DNA of 27,867 nucleotides from a virus. The stretch covers positions 1 through 27,867 of IMG/VR virus record IMGVR_UViG_3300006793_000204. One strand, 5' to 3'. The notes beneath the pieces were generated by a model, which did no database searches, was not told the DNA's origin, and was given only the letters and a program-made list of their open reading frames with translations. This document shows, in pieces, positions 1,400 through 17,409 of the stretch (the stretch's first letter is position 1; every line of letters starts with the position of its first letter). The translations under genes were made by a program, and so were the position numbers.

Positions 1400-1488
1400 T
1401 TTTTTCTCAAAAGTATTGTTATAATTATAAGTGTTATCATCCACATTGTATTTATAAGTACGAATGGGTTTAATATATAATCAATCAT
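1396..1488 (-). CDS. Tiny hydrophobic protein (30 aa)
   Basis: Reading from the ATG at 1488 gives 'MIDYILNPFVLINTMWMITL' followed by a short hydrophobic run and a basic RKK end. Its start overlaps the stop of the upstream zinc-ribbon-like gene by one base (TAATG) and its stop overlaps the next start (ATGA). The upstream GAGGTGGAG can serve as ribosome site. It could be a one-helix membrane peptide. Because it is so short it may instead only carry ribosomes from one gene to the next. The exact fit at both junctions is the main evidence. Confidence 0.4.
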   Translation of the reverse strand: MIDYILNPFVLINTMWMITLIIITILLRKK

Positions 1489-1646
1489 TACTCCACCTCA
1501 CTTTCTATTTTATTAAAACAATCTTGGCAATATGGGTCTCCGTAGTTATCCCATTTTGTGTTATTATATGGAGAATCATCGTCAGTATGCTTATCGCATT
1601 CTGAACAAACACTTATATCACAAGGCAATTCTTTAACTTCTTCCAT
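1488..1646 (-). CDS. Zinc-ribbon-like small protein (52 aa)
   Basis: 52 residues, starting at the ATG at 1646, which overlaps the previous stop by one base (TGATG). It contains 'CSECDKH' and 'YCQDCF', two CxxC knuckles about 22 residues apart, as in a zinc ribbon; a further lone Cys precedes them. The protein is acidic and ends in ESEVE, the same ending as the upstream 40-residue protein, because the DNA AGAAAGTGAGGTGGAGT is repeated at both gene ends. Such small zinc-ribbon proteins in phage early operons often bind host proteins or nucleic acid; its target here is unknown. Confidence 0.6.
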   Translation of the reverse strand: MEEVKELPCDISVCSECDKHTDDDSPYNNTKWDNYGDPYCQDCFNKIESEVE

Positions 1647-1768
1647 CACTCCACCTCACTTTCTTTTATCTGTTTATGCCATTTGTATAATATGTATATG
1701 TTGCAGAATATTGACCACGTTGCCAATCCCAACAACCCTAAAAGCAGACCTACATTTAACGTTATCAT
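1646..1768 (-). CDS. Single-helix membrane protein (40 aa)
   Basis: 40 residues from the ATG at 1768, overlapping the stop of the upstream gene (ATGA). Residues ~3-28 ('LNVGLLLGLLGLATWSIFCN' and onward) are a continuous hydrophobic helix, followed by a charged end 'KWHKQIKESEVE'. Its TGA overlaps the next ATG by one base. Topology is probably N-out with a short cytoplasmic tail. This is one of three tiny membrane proteins in the same 500 bp. No family recognised. Confidence 0.5.
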   Translation of the reverse strand: MITLNVGLLLGLLGLATWSIFCNIYILYKWHKQIKESEVE

Positions 1769-4320: not shown

Positions 4321-5577
4321 TTACACCTGTGGGTTTGTTGCGGTCTGAACATCTTTTTTAATCTCAATTAGCAAAGCCTTATCTTTTTCATTTTCTTCCC
4401 ACGATACCGTTACATCGTCTAACACTTGGCTTGCCGTATCTCCATCGAGGATAGCTTTTCTCCCCTCAGAGAAGACCCTTGTAGAAACCACTCTTCTTAT
4501 GTTTGCCTTTACTACATTCTTTCTGAGATGGATAAGTGCCTTATTCAATGCGCTTAGATTAATGCTAACAGAGGACTTACTACCGTCATGAGTATCGAAC
4601 CTCATGTTGGTTTTCCTCTTCATCTTGCCTGTGAGTAGATACTCTTCAAGTCTTGGGTCATAGTCGACATATACGGTGCTAAGTGCAAATCTGTCGAGAG
4701 TTGCTATATCTAATTGATTCCGTCCTGTATACTCCCACGAGCCACTTGTACCATATGTGTTACAGCATGCCAAGAAGTAACAATCCTCATGCCTATCAAG
4801 TGACGGTTGCTCTCGGTTATTGGGTACGCTTAGCACCCCATTCGCGAGGAATGAATTCCATACCACAAGCATGTTTGAGTCACTTGCATCAAATTCATCT
4901 GCTAAGTACAATCCACCGTTTTTTGCAATGTCTATAAATTGAGTACCGATATAACTCCCATCCATAGTCATTCTTCCAAGCACCTGTGCTTCTGACATTC
5001 CTGCACTACATGATATATGCCCAAAGTCCTTGTCGATAACTTGAGCAACTTGTTGTGCTAAGGTTGTTTTTCCTGTTCCTGCGGGGCCAACAAGCATAAC
5101 ATTCTTGTGCCTTCGCGCTTTCCTCACTATCCTATCGAGTAGTGGGTGACTGATAGTTCCTTTTGGTAATTTATCCTCGGGAATTGGCGAACCGTCGGGA
5201 AGTGAGTCGGCATCTCCATCTCCATTTAGCCCATCCTGTAATGCATTTAGGAATGCAATGGCATCCGCTAATTTTTCATCTGGCTTAGCATCATCTGGCT
5301 TAGCATCAGGTTTAGCATCAGGCTTAGCATCTGGCTTAGCATCATCAGATTTAGAGGGGTTTGTCGACGGTACGTGTTCCGATGGTGTTGAGACTTTAGC
5401 ACCGATTTCACCATTTTTGAGGGTTTCGATTAGCTTATCCTTCCTCATGTGGGCGATTTCGGACGTAGTAGAGGATAATTTTCCGTCTTTAATTGCAGAA
5501 TAGCCAAGTTTCCTCAAGTTTCTGACTGTCATGCCTTCGAGGATAGATGCGTGAGGGTGATATGTGCTTGTTTTCAT
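4321..5577 (-). CDS. MoxR/CobS-type AAA+ ATPase
   Basis: 418 residues, ATG at 5577 with GAGGAGG about 8 bases upstream and an ATGA overlap with the preceding gene. Residues ~10-58 resemble a SAP/Rho-N-type helical domain ('MTVRNLRKLGYSAI...MRKDKLIETL'). A linker at ~78-102 is made of DAKP repeats. The AAA+ core has Walker A 'GPAGTGKTT' (164-172), Walker B 'LYLADEFD' (223-230), sensor-1 Asn in 'CCNTYGTSG' (~273) and an Arg in 'ATLDRFA' (~296). The arrangement fits MoxR/CobS ATPases, which remodel protein complexes together with VWA partners; CobS-like genes are common in phages. The physiological target is unknown, and cobalt chelation is not implied. Confidence 0.85.
   Translation of the reverse strand: MKTSTYHPHASILEGMTVRNLRKLGYSAIKDGKLSSTTSEIAHMRKDKLIETLKNGEIGAKVSTPSEHVPSTNPSKSDDAKPDAKPDAKPDAKPDDAKPDEKLADAIAFLNALQDGLNGDGDADSLPDGSPIPEDKLPKGTISHPLLDRIVRKARRHKNVMLVGPAGTGKTTLAQQVAQVIDKDFGHISCSAGMSEAQVLGRMTMDGSYIGTQFIDIAKNGGLYLADEFDASDSNMLVVWNSFLANGVLSVPNNREQPSLDRHEDCYFLACCNTYGTSGSWEYTGRNQLDIATLDRFALSTVYVDYDPRLEEYLLTGKMKRKTNMRFDTHDGSKSSVSINLSALNKALIHLRKNVVKANIRRVVSTRVFSEGRKAILDGDTASQVLDDVTVSWEENEKDKALLIEIKKDVQTATNPQV
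5281..5343 (-). repeat. Five 12-bp repeats (GATGCTAAGCCW) inside the ATPase gene
   Basis: On the plus strand, copies of WGGYTTAGCATC start at 5281, 5296, 5308, 5320 and 5332; three extra bases separate the first two. They encode the DAKP linker of the ATPase. Two copies are identical apart from one base to the next, suggesting slippage expansion. The core TTAGCATC is also found in the control region upstream of the leftward promoter. Confidence 0.85.
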
Positions 5578-5771: not shown

Positions 5772-6137
5772 TCAATTCGCTGAGGCTGAATACGTATCGT
5801 CATTCATGTCGAAAGTCACCGAGTCACTACCGAAGTGGATTGGGTCGGGATTTAAGAACGTGGGTGCATCTACGTACCATTCGCCCTTCGTCTGGTATAC
5901 GTGAAATCCGAGACCGTATGCCTCTGCGACCTCATTCATCCGCCTTTTTGTCGTCGGGGTGAACCATCCGCCTGTGCTGAGGGTAATGCTATTATCTCGT
6001 CGGTTAATAGCTACGATGTCGGTTACGTGTAGCACCACGACGGTCTTTCCTTCGCTTGTGTCTACGTGGGTGTTACCCTTGCGTTCGATGTCCTCGGGGG
6101 TTAGCGTGTTTGTTGTTGGTTTGCGTTCGATGTTCAT
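5772..6137 (-). CDS. Conserved phage protein, first gene of leftward operon (121 aa)
   Basis: 121 residues starting 'MNIERKPTTNTLTPEDIERK' at 6137, with AAGGAG 6 bases upstream. An in-frame extension to 6221 is rejected because it would consume the leader and hairpin. The core 'DNSITLSTGGWFTPTTKRRM' followed by 'YGLGFHVYQTKGEWYV' is a pattern I recall in many short uncharacterised proteins of unrelated phages, probably a small beta-alpha fold. As the promoter-proximal gene it is likely expressed early and strongly. Local base composition is visibly richer in G+C than the genes around it, which hints at a separate origin. Function unknown. Confidence 0.7.
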   Translation of the reverse strand: MNIERKPTTNTLTPEDIERKGNTHVDTSEGKTVVVLHVTDIVAINRRDNSITLSTGGWFTPTTKRRMNEVAEAYGLGFHVYQTKGEWYVDAPTFLNPDPIHFGSDSVTFDMNDDTYSASAN

Positions 6138-6149
6138 GTCAATCTCCTT

Positions 6150-6163
6150 GTCGGTCTCCCGAC
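6150..6163 (-). promoter_or_regulatory. Leader hairpin with GAGA tetraloop at the ribosome site
   Basis: In the leftward transcript GTCGG and CCGAC flank GAGA, a 5-bp stem closed by a GNRA-type tetraloop. It ends where the AAGGAG ribosome site of the first early gene begins. It may protect the message or affect ribosome access. Confidence 0.4.
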
Positions 6164-6240
6164 GGTTTAGGTTTATCAAATCTGGGATATTTCCCCTCGA
6201 TTCGTTGGCACAACTTACCATGTACGTTTAGCTTAGTCCA

Positions 6241-6269
6241 GTATTATCGTGCAACTCCAACAATATCAA
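6241..6269 (-). promoter_or_regulatory. Sigma70-like promoter for the leftward early operon
   Basis: Read on the minus strand: TTGATA (6269-6264), a 17-base spacer, then TAATAC (6246-6241). Each hexamer is one or two changes from consensus and the spacing is ideal. Transcription would start near 6234, giving a leader of about 100 bases before the ATG at 6137. The site is bracketed by TTTAGC elements on both sides, so it is likely regulated. Confidence 0.6.
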
Positions 6270-6270
6270 G

Positions 6271-6328
6271 GTTTAGCAGATGTTTAGCAGATGGCTTAGC
6301 ATGAGGGAATCCGAGGAGTAGCATGCTA
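6271..6328. promoter_or_regulatory. Operator-like TTAGCA array and palindrome
   Basis: GTTTAGCAGAT occurs at 6271-6281 and again, identical, at 6282-6292; a third GGCTTAGCATG follows at 6293-6303. The TTAGCA cores are spaced 11 and 12 bases, one helical turn, directly upstream of the leftward -35. A perfect palindrome TAGCATGCTA (6319-6328) joins two inverted TAGCA half-sites. A related TTTAGCTTAG (6227-6236) covers the likely start point. This fits binding sites for a phage repressor or activator. Confidence 0.55.
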
Positions 6329-6343
6329 TCCTACGCGTACGGT

Positions 6344-6446
6344 GGGCTAAATGGGGGGTCGGGGTCAACGTAAACGGGGAAAAGTTGGCTACTCAACGGC
6401 CTTTGGAATGTGGAATCCGCTTTTGTGCGGGGGCGGTACGGGGGGG
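6344..6446 (+). other. G-run clusters with G-quadruplex potential
   Basis: Runs of 3, 6, 4 and 4 G lie at 6344-6346, 6353-6358, 6361-6364 and 6376-6379. Further runs of 5 and 7 G lie at 6429-6433 and 6440-6446. Four G-tracts with short loops can fold as a quadruplex on the plus strand. The surrounding phage DNA is AT-rich, so the strand bias stands out. No convincing gene overlaps. Confidence 0.45.
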
Positions 6447-6477
6447 AGAGACCTCCATAAAAATTACGAGCTAAAAT

Positions 6478-6521
6478 GCTTCCAAGTTGCTTACAGGTTG
6501 CCTACAGATTGCTTACAAGTT
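6478..6521. repeat. Four tandem 11-bp iterons (GCTTACARGTT)
   Basis: GCTTCCAAGTT, GCTTACAGGTT, GCCTACAGATT and GCTTACAAGTT follow one another without gaps at 6478, 6489, 6500 and 6511. An 11-bp period places all copies on the same DNA face, as in iterons or cooperative operators. They sit directly beside the AT-rich repeat block, matching plasmid and phage origin architecture. Confidence 0.75.
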
Positions 6522-6562
6522 GTACTTAAATAATTATTTTATAGAGAAGAAACCACCCTCAC

Positions 6563-6630
6563 TTATTTAATAAGTTATTTAATAAGTTATTTAATAGACT
6601 ATTTAATGGGTTATTTAATTAGCTATTAAT
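6563..6630. repeat. AT-rich 12-bp repeat block, candidate DNA-unwinding element
   Basis: TTATTTAATAAG occurs twice in tandem (6563-6574, 6575-6586), then TTATTTAATAGA (6587), TATTTAATGGG (6600), TTATTTAATTAG (6611) and a partial CTATTAAT (6623). Together with the iterons immediately to the left, this resembles an origin: protein-binding iterons next to easily melted AT-rich repeats. Confidence 0.7.
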
Positions 6631-6632
6631 CT

Positions 6633-6662
6633 GGTATAGGTACTGGTACTGGTACTGGTATA
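6633..6662. repeat. Hexanucleotide tandem repeat (GGTACT)
   Basis: Five 6-bp units: GGTATA, three copies of GGTACT, and GGTATA again. This is a perfect small microsatellite at the edge of the AT-rich block, prone to slippage. No coding function seen. Confidence 0.75.
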
Positions 6663-6665
6663 ATT

Positions 6666-6693
6666 ATATAATATTAGTATATTAATATTATAT
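6666..6693. repeat. AT-only inverted repeat with 11-bp arms
   Basis: ATATAATATTA (6666-6676) and TAATATTATAT (6683-6693) are perfect inverted copies separated by GTATAT. It could extrude as a cruciform or bind a dimeric protein. It lies between the origin-like repeats and the rightward genes. The stretch 6694-6751 shows nothing further. Confidence 0.65.
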
Positions 6694-6751
6694 GGAAAAT
6701 TTAGTAAATTCATTTTTATTTAGTATGGAACTAAAATGTGGTAATAGTTGT

Positions 6752-6779
6752 TTGCATTTCCCAAGAGTCATGATATATT
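6752..6779 (+). promoter_or_regulatory. Possible rightward promoter before the packaging genes
   Basis: TTGCAT (6752-6757), a 16-base spacer and TATATT (6774-6779) resemble a sigma70 promoter. It would start transcription at or next to the GTG at 6786, leaving almost no leader. The region is AT-rich, so such matches arise easily by chance. Confidence 0.3.
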
Positions 6780-6785
6780 AGCTAT

Positions 6786-7592
6786 GTGAAAGTTCATTGT
6801 CATGGAAAAGAGTTTGATGAATATTCCTTAACTGAGGCGATGAGATATAAAATCCCAGCCTTGTTTGATTGGCGTAAAGCTGAGAAGAATGATTGGATTG
6901 TCACATGGAATAATCGAGTTATACAAGTGTTTGCGCGGTTTGAGTTCAATAAACAGAATGTAAAACCGAGCGTAATTCTGCGAACAGGATATGGAGATAC
7001 ATCAACTGCTTCTAAACATATCTATGCAAAGGAAACCAAGTTTTTTGACGATATTAGTAAACCTTATGTGCATGCATTACCGCCTACAAGCAAACAAAAG
7101 GCGTACATCGAGAGACTCATTAACAAAAATTCGTTTGATGAGTTCGGAAACGCAAATGCTAATGACATTATCAGCGAGTATATGGCGGTTTTTAGCGACA
7201 ACAACCCAAAACAGGCTCTGCGTCGCGGACTAAGGATATTAAGAAAGAAATCAATAAAGGAAATGGTAAACCAATCACTAAAAGATAAGTTTGAATCACA
7301 TGGGCTTGACGACGATTATGTTGCTGTTAATCTAAAAACACTTGTTGATGACGGCGAGACACCTGATAGTGTTCGACTGTCAGCATTAAATCGTATTGGA
7401 GATGTTTTAGGGCATACTGCTAAAGAAAAAGAAGAGAAAGCTCAAAATATTATTATGATATCTGATGGGGACAAAAAATTGTTAGCACAAGTTAGGCAAG
7501 ATTTAAGCGACCAACAGATAAATCAACTGATGGCAAAGGTTAAAAAGGATGGCGTTGATGCCATTGTTGAAGACAACGATACCGAAGGCTGA
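6786..7592 (+). CDS. terS: Terminase small subunit (putative)
   Basis: 268 residues from a GTG with no ribosome site; a leaderless message or a later start (ATG at 6840) is possible. Residues ~98-150 are helical and basic ('SKQKAYIERLINKN...ALRRGLRILRKKS'). Residues ~155-215 read 'LKDKFESHGLDDDYVAVNLK' then 'LSALNRIGDVLGH', the helix pattern usual in small terminases that recognise DNA and form the ring feeding the large subunit. The C-terminus is acidic. Position, two small genes before the large terminase, supports the call. The extended N-terminal ~95 residues are unlike typical small terminases and may be an extra domain. Confidence 0.6.
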   Translation: MKVHCHGKEFDEYSLTEAMRYKIPALFDWRKAEKNDWIVTWNNRVIQVFARFEFNKQNVKPSVILRTGYGDTSTASKHIYAKETKFFDDISKPYVHALPPTSKQKAYIERLINKNSFDEFGNANANDIISEYMAVFSDNNPKQALRRGLRILRKKSIKEMVNQSLKDKFESHGLDDDYVAVNLKTLVDDGETPDSVRLSALNRIGDVLGHTAKEKEEKAQNIIMISDGDKKLLAQVRQDLSDQQINQLMAKVKKDGVDAIVEDNDTEG

Positions 7593-7892: not shown

Positions 7893-7948
7893 GTCGATTC
7901 CATAAAATATTCTTTTTTTTGGCATATCTGTGCAAAGGATGGGGTTGA
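7889..7948 (+). CDS. Leader peptide or frameshifted 5' end of the large terminase (19 aa)
   Basis: An ATG at 7889 with a strong AGGAAG ribosome site opens a 19-codon frame, 'MSRFHKIFFFLAYLCKGWG', ending at 7948, just past the first ATG of the large terminase (7939). It has a run of eight T (7913-7920). A one-base backward shift on T TTT TTT would join it to the terminase frame. It may be a coupling leader or the true terminase N-terminus; sequence alone cannot decide. Confidence 0.4.
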   Translation: MSRFHKIFFFLAYLCKGWG

Positions 7949-9579
7949 AGTACGATTATACTCCCGAAGAACGGGAAAGTCTTCTAAGAAGAATGTATGT
8001 AGATATATTCTTTTTTGCTAAATTTATACTTGGAGACCCAGAACAGCCAATGAATTATCATATTCGGTCTAAATCTCCAGATTTTCACAAAGAAATTGTT
8101 AATAAGCTCCTTAGCATGGAAATCGGGTCAAAATTGGCTGTTGTTGCGCCACGTGGTCATGCAAAATCTACATTGATTAACTTAGTTTACCCCCTACATC
8201 GCATATTATTTGATGAAGAAAAATTTATTGTTTTAATTTCTGAGTCTGAAACGCAGTCTAAGTATTTCTTGCAAGCTCTTGGTAATGAAATAGAACATAA
8301 CGAAAAACTCCAGTATTTTTTTGGAGACCGCAAGGGTAAAACATGGGGAAAAGAGGAAAAAGAATTTATTGCTGGCTTTGATGAAGACGGCAAACCCAAT
8401 TCTTGGGTTAAAGTATTAGTTCGCGGTACTGGCCAAAAGGTTCGTGGGCTAAAGTATGGCGCTTACCGTCCTACTCTGACGATTATTGATGACGGGGAGG
8501 GTGAGCGCAATACGGCAACACCATTGTTACGCGAACAGTTTCGCGGGTGGCTGAATGGCGCTGTAATTGCAGGTAGCAATGATGCGCGCCTCATATTTAT
8601 TGGGACGATAGTGGATGAACAAAGTTATTTGAATCGTATTGCTGGGCCAATGTCTTTTGACCGTAAGGGTAATCGAAAACGTAAGGGTTGGGATACGATG
8701 TTTTATCAAGCTATTGTCCAAGATACACAAAAAGGGCTTTTTGTTGCCAGCGGAAAAGAAATAGTCAGACTCGACGGAGAACCAGAAGTATTATGGTCTG
8801 ACTATCGTTCCTACAAATGGTTAAGCGATGAGCGGGAACGGCTGATGTCCGAAGGTGACGTAGCCTATTTTTATCAAGAATACCAAAATATACCAATGGA
8901 CGACAGCTTTCGCGTCTTTAAGAAAGAGCATATTCAGTATTGGGATGGTTCGTTTGGTTATAACAATGACCAGCCCGTTATATATCTCGCGGAAGATGGA
9001 GAACGACGGGAAGTGCCTATTAATATATTTTTTGGTGTAGACCCTGCTTCATCTGAGAATGTAAAGGCGGATTATACGGTTATAATGGTTGTTGGCGTAG
9101 ATAAAGAACATAATATTTATGTAATTGACTATTTTCGCGGACAAGTAACTCCGATGGATGGTGCAGATAAAATTTTCGAACTGGCAGAAGTCTATAAACC
9201 GAAAGAAATCAAGATTGAAGAGACAGGACATGTGATGTTATCTGAATATGTTACCCAAAAGTCAAAAGAATTGGGACATTTCTGGAACATTACGCCCAAA
9301 CAAGCGATAAAGGGTAAATATTATCGAATAAAACAGCTTCAACCCTATTTTGCATCCAAAGCAATGTTTATTCGTGACGAACATTTCGAGTTGGAACAAG
9401 AATTATTAAATTTTAAAGAACATGGCTCATTTAAGAAAGATACACTTGATGCTTTGCGCTGGGCGGTAGATGATATGTATAAACCAAACGTGACTTATGA
9501 CGATGAAGGCAGTATTATCCCCTTCCAACCTAAAATGCGTGGCATGGATTGGCAAACAGGTGAAGTTATTTATGCATAA
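7939..9579 (+). CDS. terL: Terminase large subunit
   Basis: 546 residues from the ATG at 7939 (549 from a GTG at 7930); neither start has a good ribosome site. Numbering from the GTG: ATPase Walker A 'APRGHAKST' (73-81), Walker B 'LTIIDDGE' (183-190), then the RNase H-like nuclease with 'GVDPAS' (Asp 371), 'IKIEETG' (Glu 430) and 'KKDTLDALRWA' (Asp 504/507). These are the motor and cutting residues that translocate DNA into the prohead and cleave it. Length is normal for the family. Upstream initiation probably depends on the 19-codon frame described at 7889. Confidence 0.93.
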   Translation: MGLKYDYTPEERESLLRRMYVDIFFFAKFILGDPEQPMNYHIRSKSPDFHKEIVNKLLSMEIGSKLAVVAPRGHAKSTLINLVYPLHRILFDEEKFIVLISESETQSKYFLQALGNEIEHNEKLQYFFGDRKGKTWGKEEKEFIAGFDEDGKPNSWVKVLVRGTGQKVRGLKYGAYRPTLTIIDDGEGERNTATPLLREQFRGWLNGAVIAGSNDARLIFIGTIVDEQSYLNRIAGPMSFDRKGNRKRKGWDTMFYQAIVQDTQKGLFVASGKEIVRLDGEPEVLWSDYRSYKWLSDERERLMSEGDVAYFYQEYQNIPMDDSFRVFKKEHIQYWDGSFGYNNDQPVIYLAEDGERREVPINIFFGVDPASSENVKADYTVIMVVGVDKEHNIYVIDYFRGQVTPMDGADKIFELAEVYKPKEIKIEETGHVMLSEYVTQKSKELGHFWNITPKQAIKGKYYRIKQLQPYFASKAMFIRDEHFELEQELLNFKEHGSFKKDTLDALRWAVDDMYKPNVTYDDEGSIIPFQPKMRGMDWQTGEVIYA

Positions 9580-15376: not shown

Positions 15377-17409
15377 TGGCAGATTTTAAAGAACAAATAG
15401 AAGATATGATTGGCACGGTTGGCGATGACCAATATTTGGCAGATAGTATGAATGCTGTTGCAAAAGAAATCATCAATGCAATGCCAGAAAATAAATTGTG
15501 GGCGGTGGGGGAAGAATCCGATGAACAAACGTCCAATGGTTTTTTATTAGAAGATGGTAAAGTATTGGGCGTTTATAGGGAAAACGGTACAAACGATGAA
15601 TTTGTATCATGTAAAGAAGTGCCTATTTATTTTGAGCGAAAAGTTCAAGACAGCAATTCTTTATTTTATCCATCAAAAGAAGAACCTGTTTTTTTATTAA
15701 AAAATGGTTCTGTAAACGTGTATCCTTTACCCGCTTCTACGGGTGAAAAGGCTTTTAAGGTTGTTAGTGTTGCCTATCCAGCCGTGACATCAGTAACGAT
15801 TTCAACATTAAGTACGATTGCTAACTTCCCAAATGAGGTTGAGCATTTATTAATATTGGGCGCATCGGCACGAGGTTTACAGTATTTGATGGCGCGGGTA
15901 AAAAGTAATTTGTCTGGCTTAGCACCAAGTTTTACTGCACCTACATTCCCAACTATTAGTACGTTGAGTCTCAGCATAGCGCCGAGTGTACCAAGTATTA
16001 GCGCACAAAGCGTTAGTAGTTTGGGGACTGCTCCTACTTATTCGAAGCCAATTTTTACTGCACCTACATTCCCAACTATTAGCACGTTGAGTCTTAGCAT
16101 AGCGCCGAGTGTACCAAGTATTAGCGCACAAAGCGTTAGTAGTTTGGGGACTGCTCCTACTTATTCGAAGCCAAGTTTTGTAGCACCTACATTCCCAACT
16201 ATTGGGACACTTTCTGTTTCTGGTGCGCCAGCTATACCAGTGTTGAGTTCTTTAGCATATAGTAATGCAAGTAAAACAGCTTTTGGTGATTCAGTAGCGA
16301 TGACATCGCTTGGTACACCACCGAGTTATATTTCTCCTACTGCGAGTATTGATACAGGACAACTAATTACATTTTTAGAAACAAATGAAGACCCAGAATT
16401 GGCAGGCGTACAAATTGAGCGAATGCGTGTGGAGCTGGGTAAATATCAGGCGGATTTATCAGATAGGTTGAATGATTTTAATGAGAGCGCTGAATCTTAT
16501 CGCGCTGATATCCAGAAAAAAATCAAACAGGCGGATATTGATATTGCAGAAGCGCAGATAGATGCGCAAAATGGTACGAATGTATCCATTCAGAATGAAG
16601 CAAAGCAGTTGGAGGCGGATTTATCAAACAACAAGTTGGTATTGGAGAAATATACGTCTGAATTGGGAAGTTATCAAACGACGGTGAGTGGCGAGGTGCA
16701 GACGTTTGTGAATAATGAAATCCAGCATAAGTTTCAAAAATGGGTCACTGAATACAGTAGTGAGTTGCAGAGATATCAATTAGATATTCAAAATGAATTG
16801 AATGTATTCAACAAAGAAAATGTGGCATTTCAAGCAGACTTACAGAAGAAAATTAAAGATGCGGAATTAAATGACGCTAATCAGAATCGTTTATTGCAGA
16901 CTTATTCAAATGAGATTCAAGGCTTTGGTGTAACAATTAATGCTGAAGTGGAGCAATGGTCGAAGAATGAAATCGAGAACAAGTTTAATAAATGGTTGAA
17001 TGAATACAGTAATGCGTTGCAGGAATATCAATTAGATATTCAAAATGAATTAAATGAATTCAATAAAGAGAATGTAGCATATCAAGCAGAATTACAGAAG
17101 AAAATTAAAGATGCCGAATTAAATGACGCTAATCAAAATCGCTTATTGCAGAAATATTTAAATGAGATTCAAGGTTTTGGTGTAACGATTAATGCTGAAG
17201 TGGAAACATGGTCAAAGAATGAAATCGAGAACAAGTTTAATAAGTGGTTGAATGAATATGCGAACAAAGTTCAGGTCTATAATGTGGATATAGCGAAATA
17301 TAATGCAAACCTGCAAAGGTATAATGCAGAATACGGTTGGTATCAGGAACAGTATCAACGGTTGGATGGTAAATATAATGAAATGCTAAAAGTATATATT
17401 TCAAACTGA
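15376..17409 (+). CDS. Coiled-coil structural protein with long internal repeats
   Basis: 677 residues, start overlapping the previous stop (TAATG). Residues ~1-170 are a mixed domain ending 'FPNEVEHLLILGASARGLQY', like proteins beside adaptors in marine podoviruses. Residues ~185-300 are Pro/Ser/Thr-rich and include two almost identical 41-residue repeats. Residues ~330-677 are a long coiled coil with Asn, Gln and Tyr at many core positions, containing an 84-residue unit present about two and a half times. It may be a tail needle, fibre-like or internal virion protein; a tape-measure role is unlikely given the short-tail gene set. Function inferred from position only. Confidence 0.6.
   Translation: MADFKEQIEDMIGTVGDDQYLADSMNAVAKEIINAMPENKLWAVGEESDEQTSNGFLLEDGKVLGVYRENGTNDEFVSCKEVPIYFERKVQDSNSLFYPSKEEPVFLLKNGSVNVYPLPASTGEKAFKVVSVAYPAVTSVTISTLSTIANFPNEVEHLLILGASARGLQYLMARVKSNLSGLAPSFTAPTFPTISTLSLSIAPSVPSISAQSVSSLGTAPTYSKPIFTAPTFPTISTLSLSIAPSVPSISAQSVSSLGTAPTYSKPSFVAPTFPTIGTLSVSGAPAIPVLSSLAYSNASKTAFGDSVAMTSLGTPPSYISPTASIDTGQLITFLETNEDPELAGVQIERMRVELGKYQADLSDRLNDFNESAESYRADIQKKIKQADIDIAEAQIDAQNGTNVSIQNEAKQLEADLSNNKLVLEKYTSELGSYQTTVSGEVQTFVNNEIQHKFQKWVTEYSSELQRYQLDIQNELNVFNKENVAFQADLQKKIKDAELNDANQNRLLQTYSNEIQGFGVTINAEVEQWSKNEIENKFNKWLNEYSNALQEYQLDIQNELNEFNKENVAYQAELQKKIKDAELNDANQNRLLQKYLNEIQGFGVTINAEVETWSKNEIENKFNKWLNEYANKVQVYNVDIAKYNANLQRYNAEYGWYQEQYQRLDGKYNEMLKVYISN
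15931..16215 (+). repeat. 123-bp tandem duplication in the structural gene
   Basis: Units at 15931-16053 and 16054-16176 differ by about three bases; a third, shorter copy starts at 16177 and diverges after ~38 bases. The repeat keeps the frame (41 codons). The two copies being nearly identical even at third positions shows a recent duplication. Confidence 0.85.
16738..17290 (+). repeat. 252-bp coiled-coil repeats
   Basis: The word AAATGG followed by a GAATA-containing sequence recurs at 16738, 16990 and 17242, a period of 252 bases (84 codons). Units share phrases such as 'YQLDIQNELN', 'KKIKDAELNDANQNRLLQ' and 'EIQGFGVTINAEVE' with scattered differences. Older than the 123-bp duplication. 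It lengthens the coiled coil in multiples of 84 residues. Confidence 0.8.

Follow-up and report, generated by a model that had tools for sequence, protein, structure and literature searches.

A candidate initiator-binding site beside the terminase genes of an uncultured marine phage

Background

The replication origin of phage lambda lies within gene O. To our knowledge, paired initiator sites are known in detail only from phage SPP1. There, oriL is located inside the initiator gene 38 and oriR is intergenic, with direct repeats and an AT-rich unwinding element that are bound by gp38; at oriR, gp38 is thought to stall the replication fork and to trigger concatemer synthesis (PMC6316719, PMC3485210). 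In bacteria, the basal unwinding system and its DnaD recognition element (PMC10201434) offer a further comparison, in which boxes and AT-rich DNA adjoin a tract of short period.

Here, we analyze a linear IMG/VR record of 27,867 bases from an uncultured marine phage (the window, meaning this whole stretch of DNA), in which a non-coding gap carries tandem repeats next to AT-rich DNA. The gap resembles SPP1 oriR and, by this resemblance, would fall into the class of iteron-type phage origins: both have direct repeats and an AT-rich element, and in relatives of the window a site in the initiator gene accompanies the intergenic one. The phage family is unrelated to SPP1 and the repeat sequence differs, the locus being known here from sequence and the paired site only from relatives; moreover, oriR is intergenic within the late gene block, whereas the gap lies beside terS where two gene blocks diverge. 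Lambda ori likewise consists of iterons followed by AT-rich DNA, and in relatives the second copy falls within the initiator gene, like ori within O, but lambda has four 18-bp iterons where the window has gapless, intergenic 11-bp ones. Lambda also differs in having a single copy, as its O gene, used as a negative control, has no second copy in lambda above background.

The gap and its repeat array

At the nucleotide level, the window matches nothing in the phage collection or among named phages, whose TerL identity reaches at best about 28%. The ORF map places the array where a first, sequence-only reading had placed it, in the non-coding gap between divergent operons (Table 1), flanked by a leftward ORF (5772-6221) and by the rightward terS. 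The latter assignment combines a weak profile match with a predicted fold of overall moderate model confidence, in which the DNA-binding domain has SF6 TerS as its best PDB match (Z 7.0, rmsd 1.7, 57 residues) and other TerS structures are also among the best fold matches; the sequence profile gave nothing useful against the PDB. The ORF is thus a likely TerS with a predicted SF6/SPP1-type DNA-binding fold. Downstream of terL follow portal and then major head protein genes.

Table 1 Features of the window
Feature	Position	Strand	Basis
HTH_36/DnaD-like initiator ORF, in segment from another phage group	14-802	-	Profile and contig comparison
Junction zone: small ORF between two copies of linker ATCACTCCACCTCACTTTCT	1486-1666		Contig comparison
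Non-coding gap between divergent gene blocks	6222-6785		ORF map
Family-wide conserved core, candidate packaging or regulatory element	6364-6465	+	Motifs in relatives' gaps
Four gapless 11-bp iterons TGCYTACARRT	6477-6520	+	Repeat analysis, shuffles; conserved in L005/L006
12-bp AT-rich repeats, 5-6 copies, putative unwinding element	6563-6627	+	Repeat analysis; stability
Five CTGGTA-type hexamers	6631-6660	+	Repeat analysis; counterpart in G001
28-bp AT-rich palindrome, part of putative unwinding element	6666-6693		Stability
Terminase small subunit (TerS)	6786-7592	+	Weak phrog_51 match and predicted fold
Terminase large subunit (TerL)	7930-9579	+	phrog_38, E 6.9e-77

The four iterons are TGCTTCCAAGT (6477-6487, one mismatch to the consensus), TGCTTACAGGT (6488-6498), TGCCTACAGAT (6499-6509) and TGCTTACAAGT (6510-6520); perfect consensus copies number three in the whole window, all within this array. 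They are followed by 5.4 copies of TTATTTAATAAG, and then by the hexamers and the palindrome, both of which the sequence-only reading had missed. The iterons and 12-mers that it did report are real and correctly placed. None of 500 dinucleotide shuffles of the gap, and none of the 93 other segments of the window, reaches its 11-, 12- or 6-bp periodicity. Its description of iterons beside an AT-rich melting block also holds: in nearest-neighbor calculations across the whole window, the two 60-mers and the one 120-mer of lowest stability all fall in the AT block, and the AT block of the relative G001 is likewise lowest in stability. As such, the gap has the tandem direct repeats and the adjacent AT-rich, low-stability element of an iteron-type phage origin.

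A DnaA-dependent origin has a different signature, and no DnaA box TTATNCACA occurs within one mismatch in 6222-6785, which also separates the gap from the bacterial basal unwinding system. Tracts with a T at every third position, as in the DnaD recognition element, are present in two relatives (G006, G008) but non-significant in the window (71/500 shuffles), and a reading of the hexamers as DnaA-trio or DnaD element was rejected. A search for RNA elements returned a single subthreshold Rfam match and nothing else.

GC skew had been suggested as a check. A cumulative minimum does lie near the gap in the window and in the relatives G003, G004 and G005, but its value as origin evidence was rejected: the sign change near the gap follows gene direction and transcription, as can be seen from the circular contig G003, in which the opposite turn, at about 6.1 kb, is not antipodal.

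Conservation and movement of the array

Searches with TerL and TerS returned about 65 related contigs, mostly fragments. Two of them (L003, L004) are near-identical to the window across the gap, while three with 83% TerS identity (L005, L006, L007) keep the order of iterons, 12-mers, hexamers and AT-rich tract with changed letters, so that the layout is conserved among the nearest relatives, as the sequence-only reading had asked to be checked. Among relatives at large, array types vary clade by clade.

The core adjoining the array, a candidate packaging or promoter element, is shared more widely. It comprises GTCAACG/CTCAACGG (6364-6370, 6392-6399), a G-run (6440-6446) and CCTCCATAAAAATT (6452-6465), motifs that were found in the gaps of about 10 clades and in two contigs of a Marinimicrobia MAG, which carry both core and boxes. 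In more distant relatives, the core spans about 100 bp where the gene blocks diverge, in the form CTCAACG ... G-run ... CCTCC-ATAAAAATT, and the core persists even without a downstream array (G006, L053). In the gaps of L016, L022, L036 and L067, an operator-like palindrome, TAAACCTTAGGTTTA, is repeated downstream of the core.

With TerS, of predicted SF6/SPP1-type DNA-binding fold, encoded by the next gene and a conserved G-rich core adjoining the array, the gap might be read as a pac or cos site for packaging initiation, in which TerS would bind the iterons that immediately precede terS, with cleavage taking place in the G-run/CCTCC core. The behavior of the array in relatives makes this quite improbable. 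Specifically, the orientation of the module with respect to the core in L011/L012 is the inverse of that in L052/L057/L058, and in G006 the module lies across the core, to its left and about 0.7 kb away, one gene into the leftward operon, with a similar arrangement in G008. The array thereby lacks the fixed orientation of a packaging site, which disfavors a TerS-bound pac or cos sequence, for which such movement is unexpected; it fits a self-contained module. Furthermore, the boxes recur in initiator genes and not in terS, and the ends of contigs, as distinct from those of virion DNA, are scattered around the core and do not pile up at any single base. By itself, the core may still be a pac or cos site.

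The location between divergent operons would also suit a regulatory site, bound by an initiator or a repressor and controlling divergent promoters without origin activity, and the TAAACCTTAGGTTTA palindromes in the gaps of other clades point the same way. We consider this unlikely, as promoter-like sites are no commoner than in shuffles, and the AT-rich, low-stability block and its changes of position are more origin-like.

Paired sites in initiator genes

A clue to a binding partner comes from relatives in which the boxes of the gap recur within a DUF1376 initiator gene, in the stretch encoding a linker (G003, G004, G005). Local scores between gap and initiator gene are 45, 45 and 53, respectively, against shuffle maxima of 33-34, with BLAST E values of 1e-5, 1e-5 and 7e-8, and the match ranks first genome-wide; in the reverse test, the gap is the best genome match to the initiator gene in all three. 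The modules of G003/G004 and of G005 match the initiator gene of their own clade with scores of 45-53 and those of other clades with at most 26. Since these cross-clade matches are at background, boxes and initiator gene diverge together. Within the window's family, such strong pairing is limited to two clades, G003/G004 and G005. G006 and G008 take first rank in the forward direction but not in the reverse one, with matches due to simple triplet repeats, G009 gives a tie, and G002 shows no pairing between gap and initiator gene. The initiators of G003, G005 and G006 match DUF1376 (G006 below the cut-off) and replication-initiation PHROGs. At nucleotides 392-419 of the G003/G004 initiator gene, CTGCTA hexamers encode a TATA linker, and the G004 gene copy carries in-frame stops.

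Repeats of the same type also occur beyond the family. Three consecutive TGCNTACAR units, used as a search pattern, matched 13 viral contigs outside it, some of them duplicates, and three of these matches (L154, L156, L157) lie inside genes of replication-initiation or DnaD-like loader families (phrog_3926, phrog_9474 and phrog_2514 types). These share the TGCYTACA unit with the window but carry it within coding sequence, whereas the window's iterons are intergenic. Their presence in initiator genes of three unrelated phages ties this repeat type to phage initiators independently of family. A further match, L152, belongs to a phage whose TerL is of another family; close to where its packaging gene block starts, four 11-bp copies follow one another without gaps next to a G-run.

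The partner named on the contig

The sequence-only reading had proposed the protein of ORF 14-802 as the iteron binder, and this found no support in the comparison with other contigs. Positions 1-1509 are 99.4-99.7% identical to L088, L089 and L090, which belong to another phage group (group X) with its own terminase, while the window from 1630 onward matches L003; both families of matching contigs end at copies of the short linker ATCACTCCACCTCACTTTCT. The window is therefore probably a chimera or a very recent recombinant at this junction, which makes the ORF unfit to be taken as the binder. Its relatives occur in phages such as G022, which is fully sequenced, has a 127-bp repeat at its ends and encodes a terminase of its own; G022 also has its own repeat pair between initiator gene and intergenic DNA (E 3e-7), unlike the window's repeats in sequence. 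In ORF 14-802 there is no TGCYTACARRT box, and its matches to the gap are confined to AT-rich low-complexity sequence; it is probably not the cognate initiator.

A natural recombinant whose newly acquired initiator uses the array would nevertheless account for ORF and array sharing a contig, and the linker is native to both phage groups and the end of L003 resembles a group-X contig. We regard this as very improbable, given that the ORF lacks the iteron, that the sites of its own group carry other repeats and that so close an identity with group-X contigs points to a chimera or to an exchange in the very recent past. The linker copies at 1486-1666 are RBS-like, and the genes to the left of the junction belong to the group of G022 and L089.

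A candidate origin and its implications

We propose that the gap serves the phage's own initiator as an intergenic site and that it is most likely a candidate replication origin, a reading to which we assign a probability of about 0.58. Of the original origin proposal, the layout, the conservation in nearest relatives and the matching initiator-gene sites argue for retention, and its partner is dropped. From these features we infer initiator binding, melting and firing at the gap: the initiator, expected to be a DUF1376/O-like protein encoded off this contig, would bind the iterons, and the 12-mers, hexamer tract and palindrome would melt for helicase loading. The pairing is known from relatives and, with the window's own initiator gene off the contig, suggests by analogy that the gap would be a second such site, alongside a first one inside the initiator gene, as oriR is to oriL. 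A site may bind an initiator without being an origin; this one may fire, or may act in the switch to concatemer replication by blocking forks.

A more tentative and, in our view, doubtful extension holds that both the marine family and the separate group X maintain a movable initiator-site module as a co-evolving pair, of which one copy lies within the initiator gene and the other, intergenic, can flip or jump around the G-rich core beside terS, which would make SPP1-type paired origins a general, evolvable strategy that couples replication mode to packaging.

If the proposed reading is true, paired initiator sites exist also in unrelated marine phages, can be found from sequence alone by matching intergenic repeats to a phage's own initiator gene, and include a candidate for the theta-to-concatemer switch next to packaging genes. 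The case also carries a warning, in that the initiator named from the contig itself was probably the wrong one.

Two further repeats in the window are coding. A 12-bp repeat, GGCTTAGCATCT (5277-5343), encodes an AKPD linker in a CobS-like AAA ATPase gene and resembles TTTAGCAGAT repeats in the gap at 6271-6302 (E 0.001), and a 677-aa structural ORF contains long in-frame tandem repeats of 123 and 252 bp (15925-16203 and 16710-17258).
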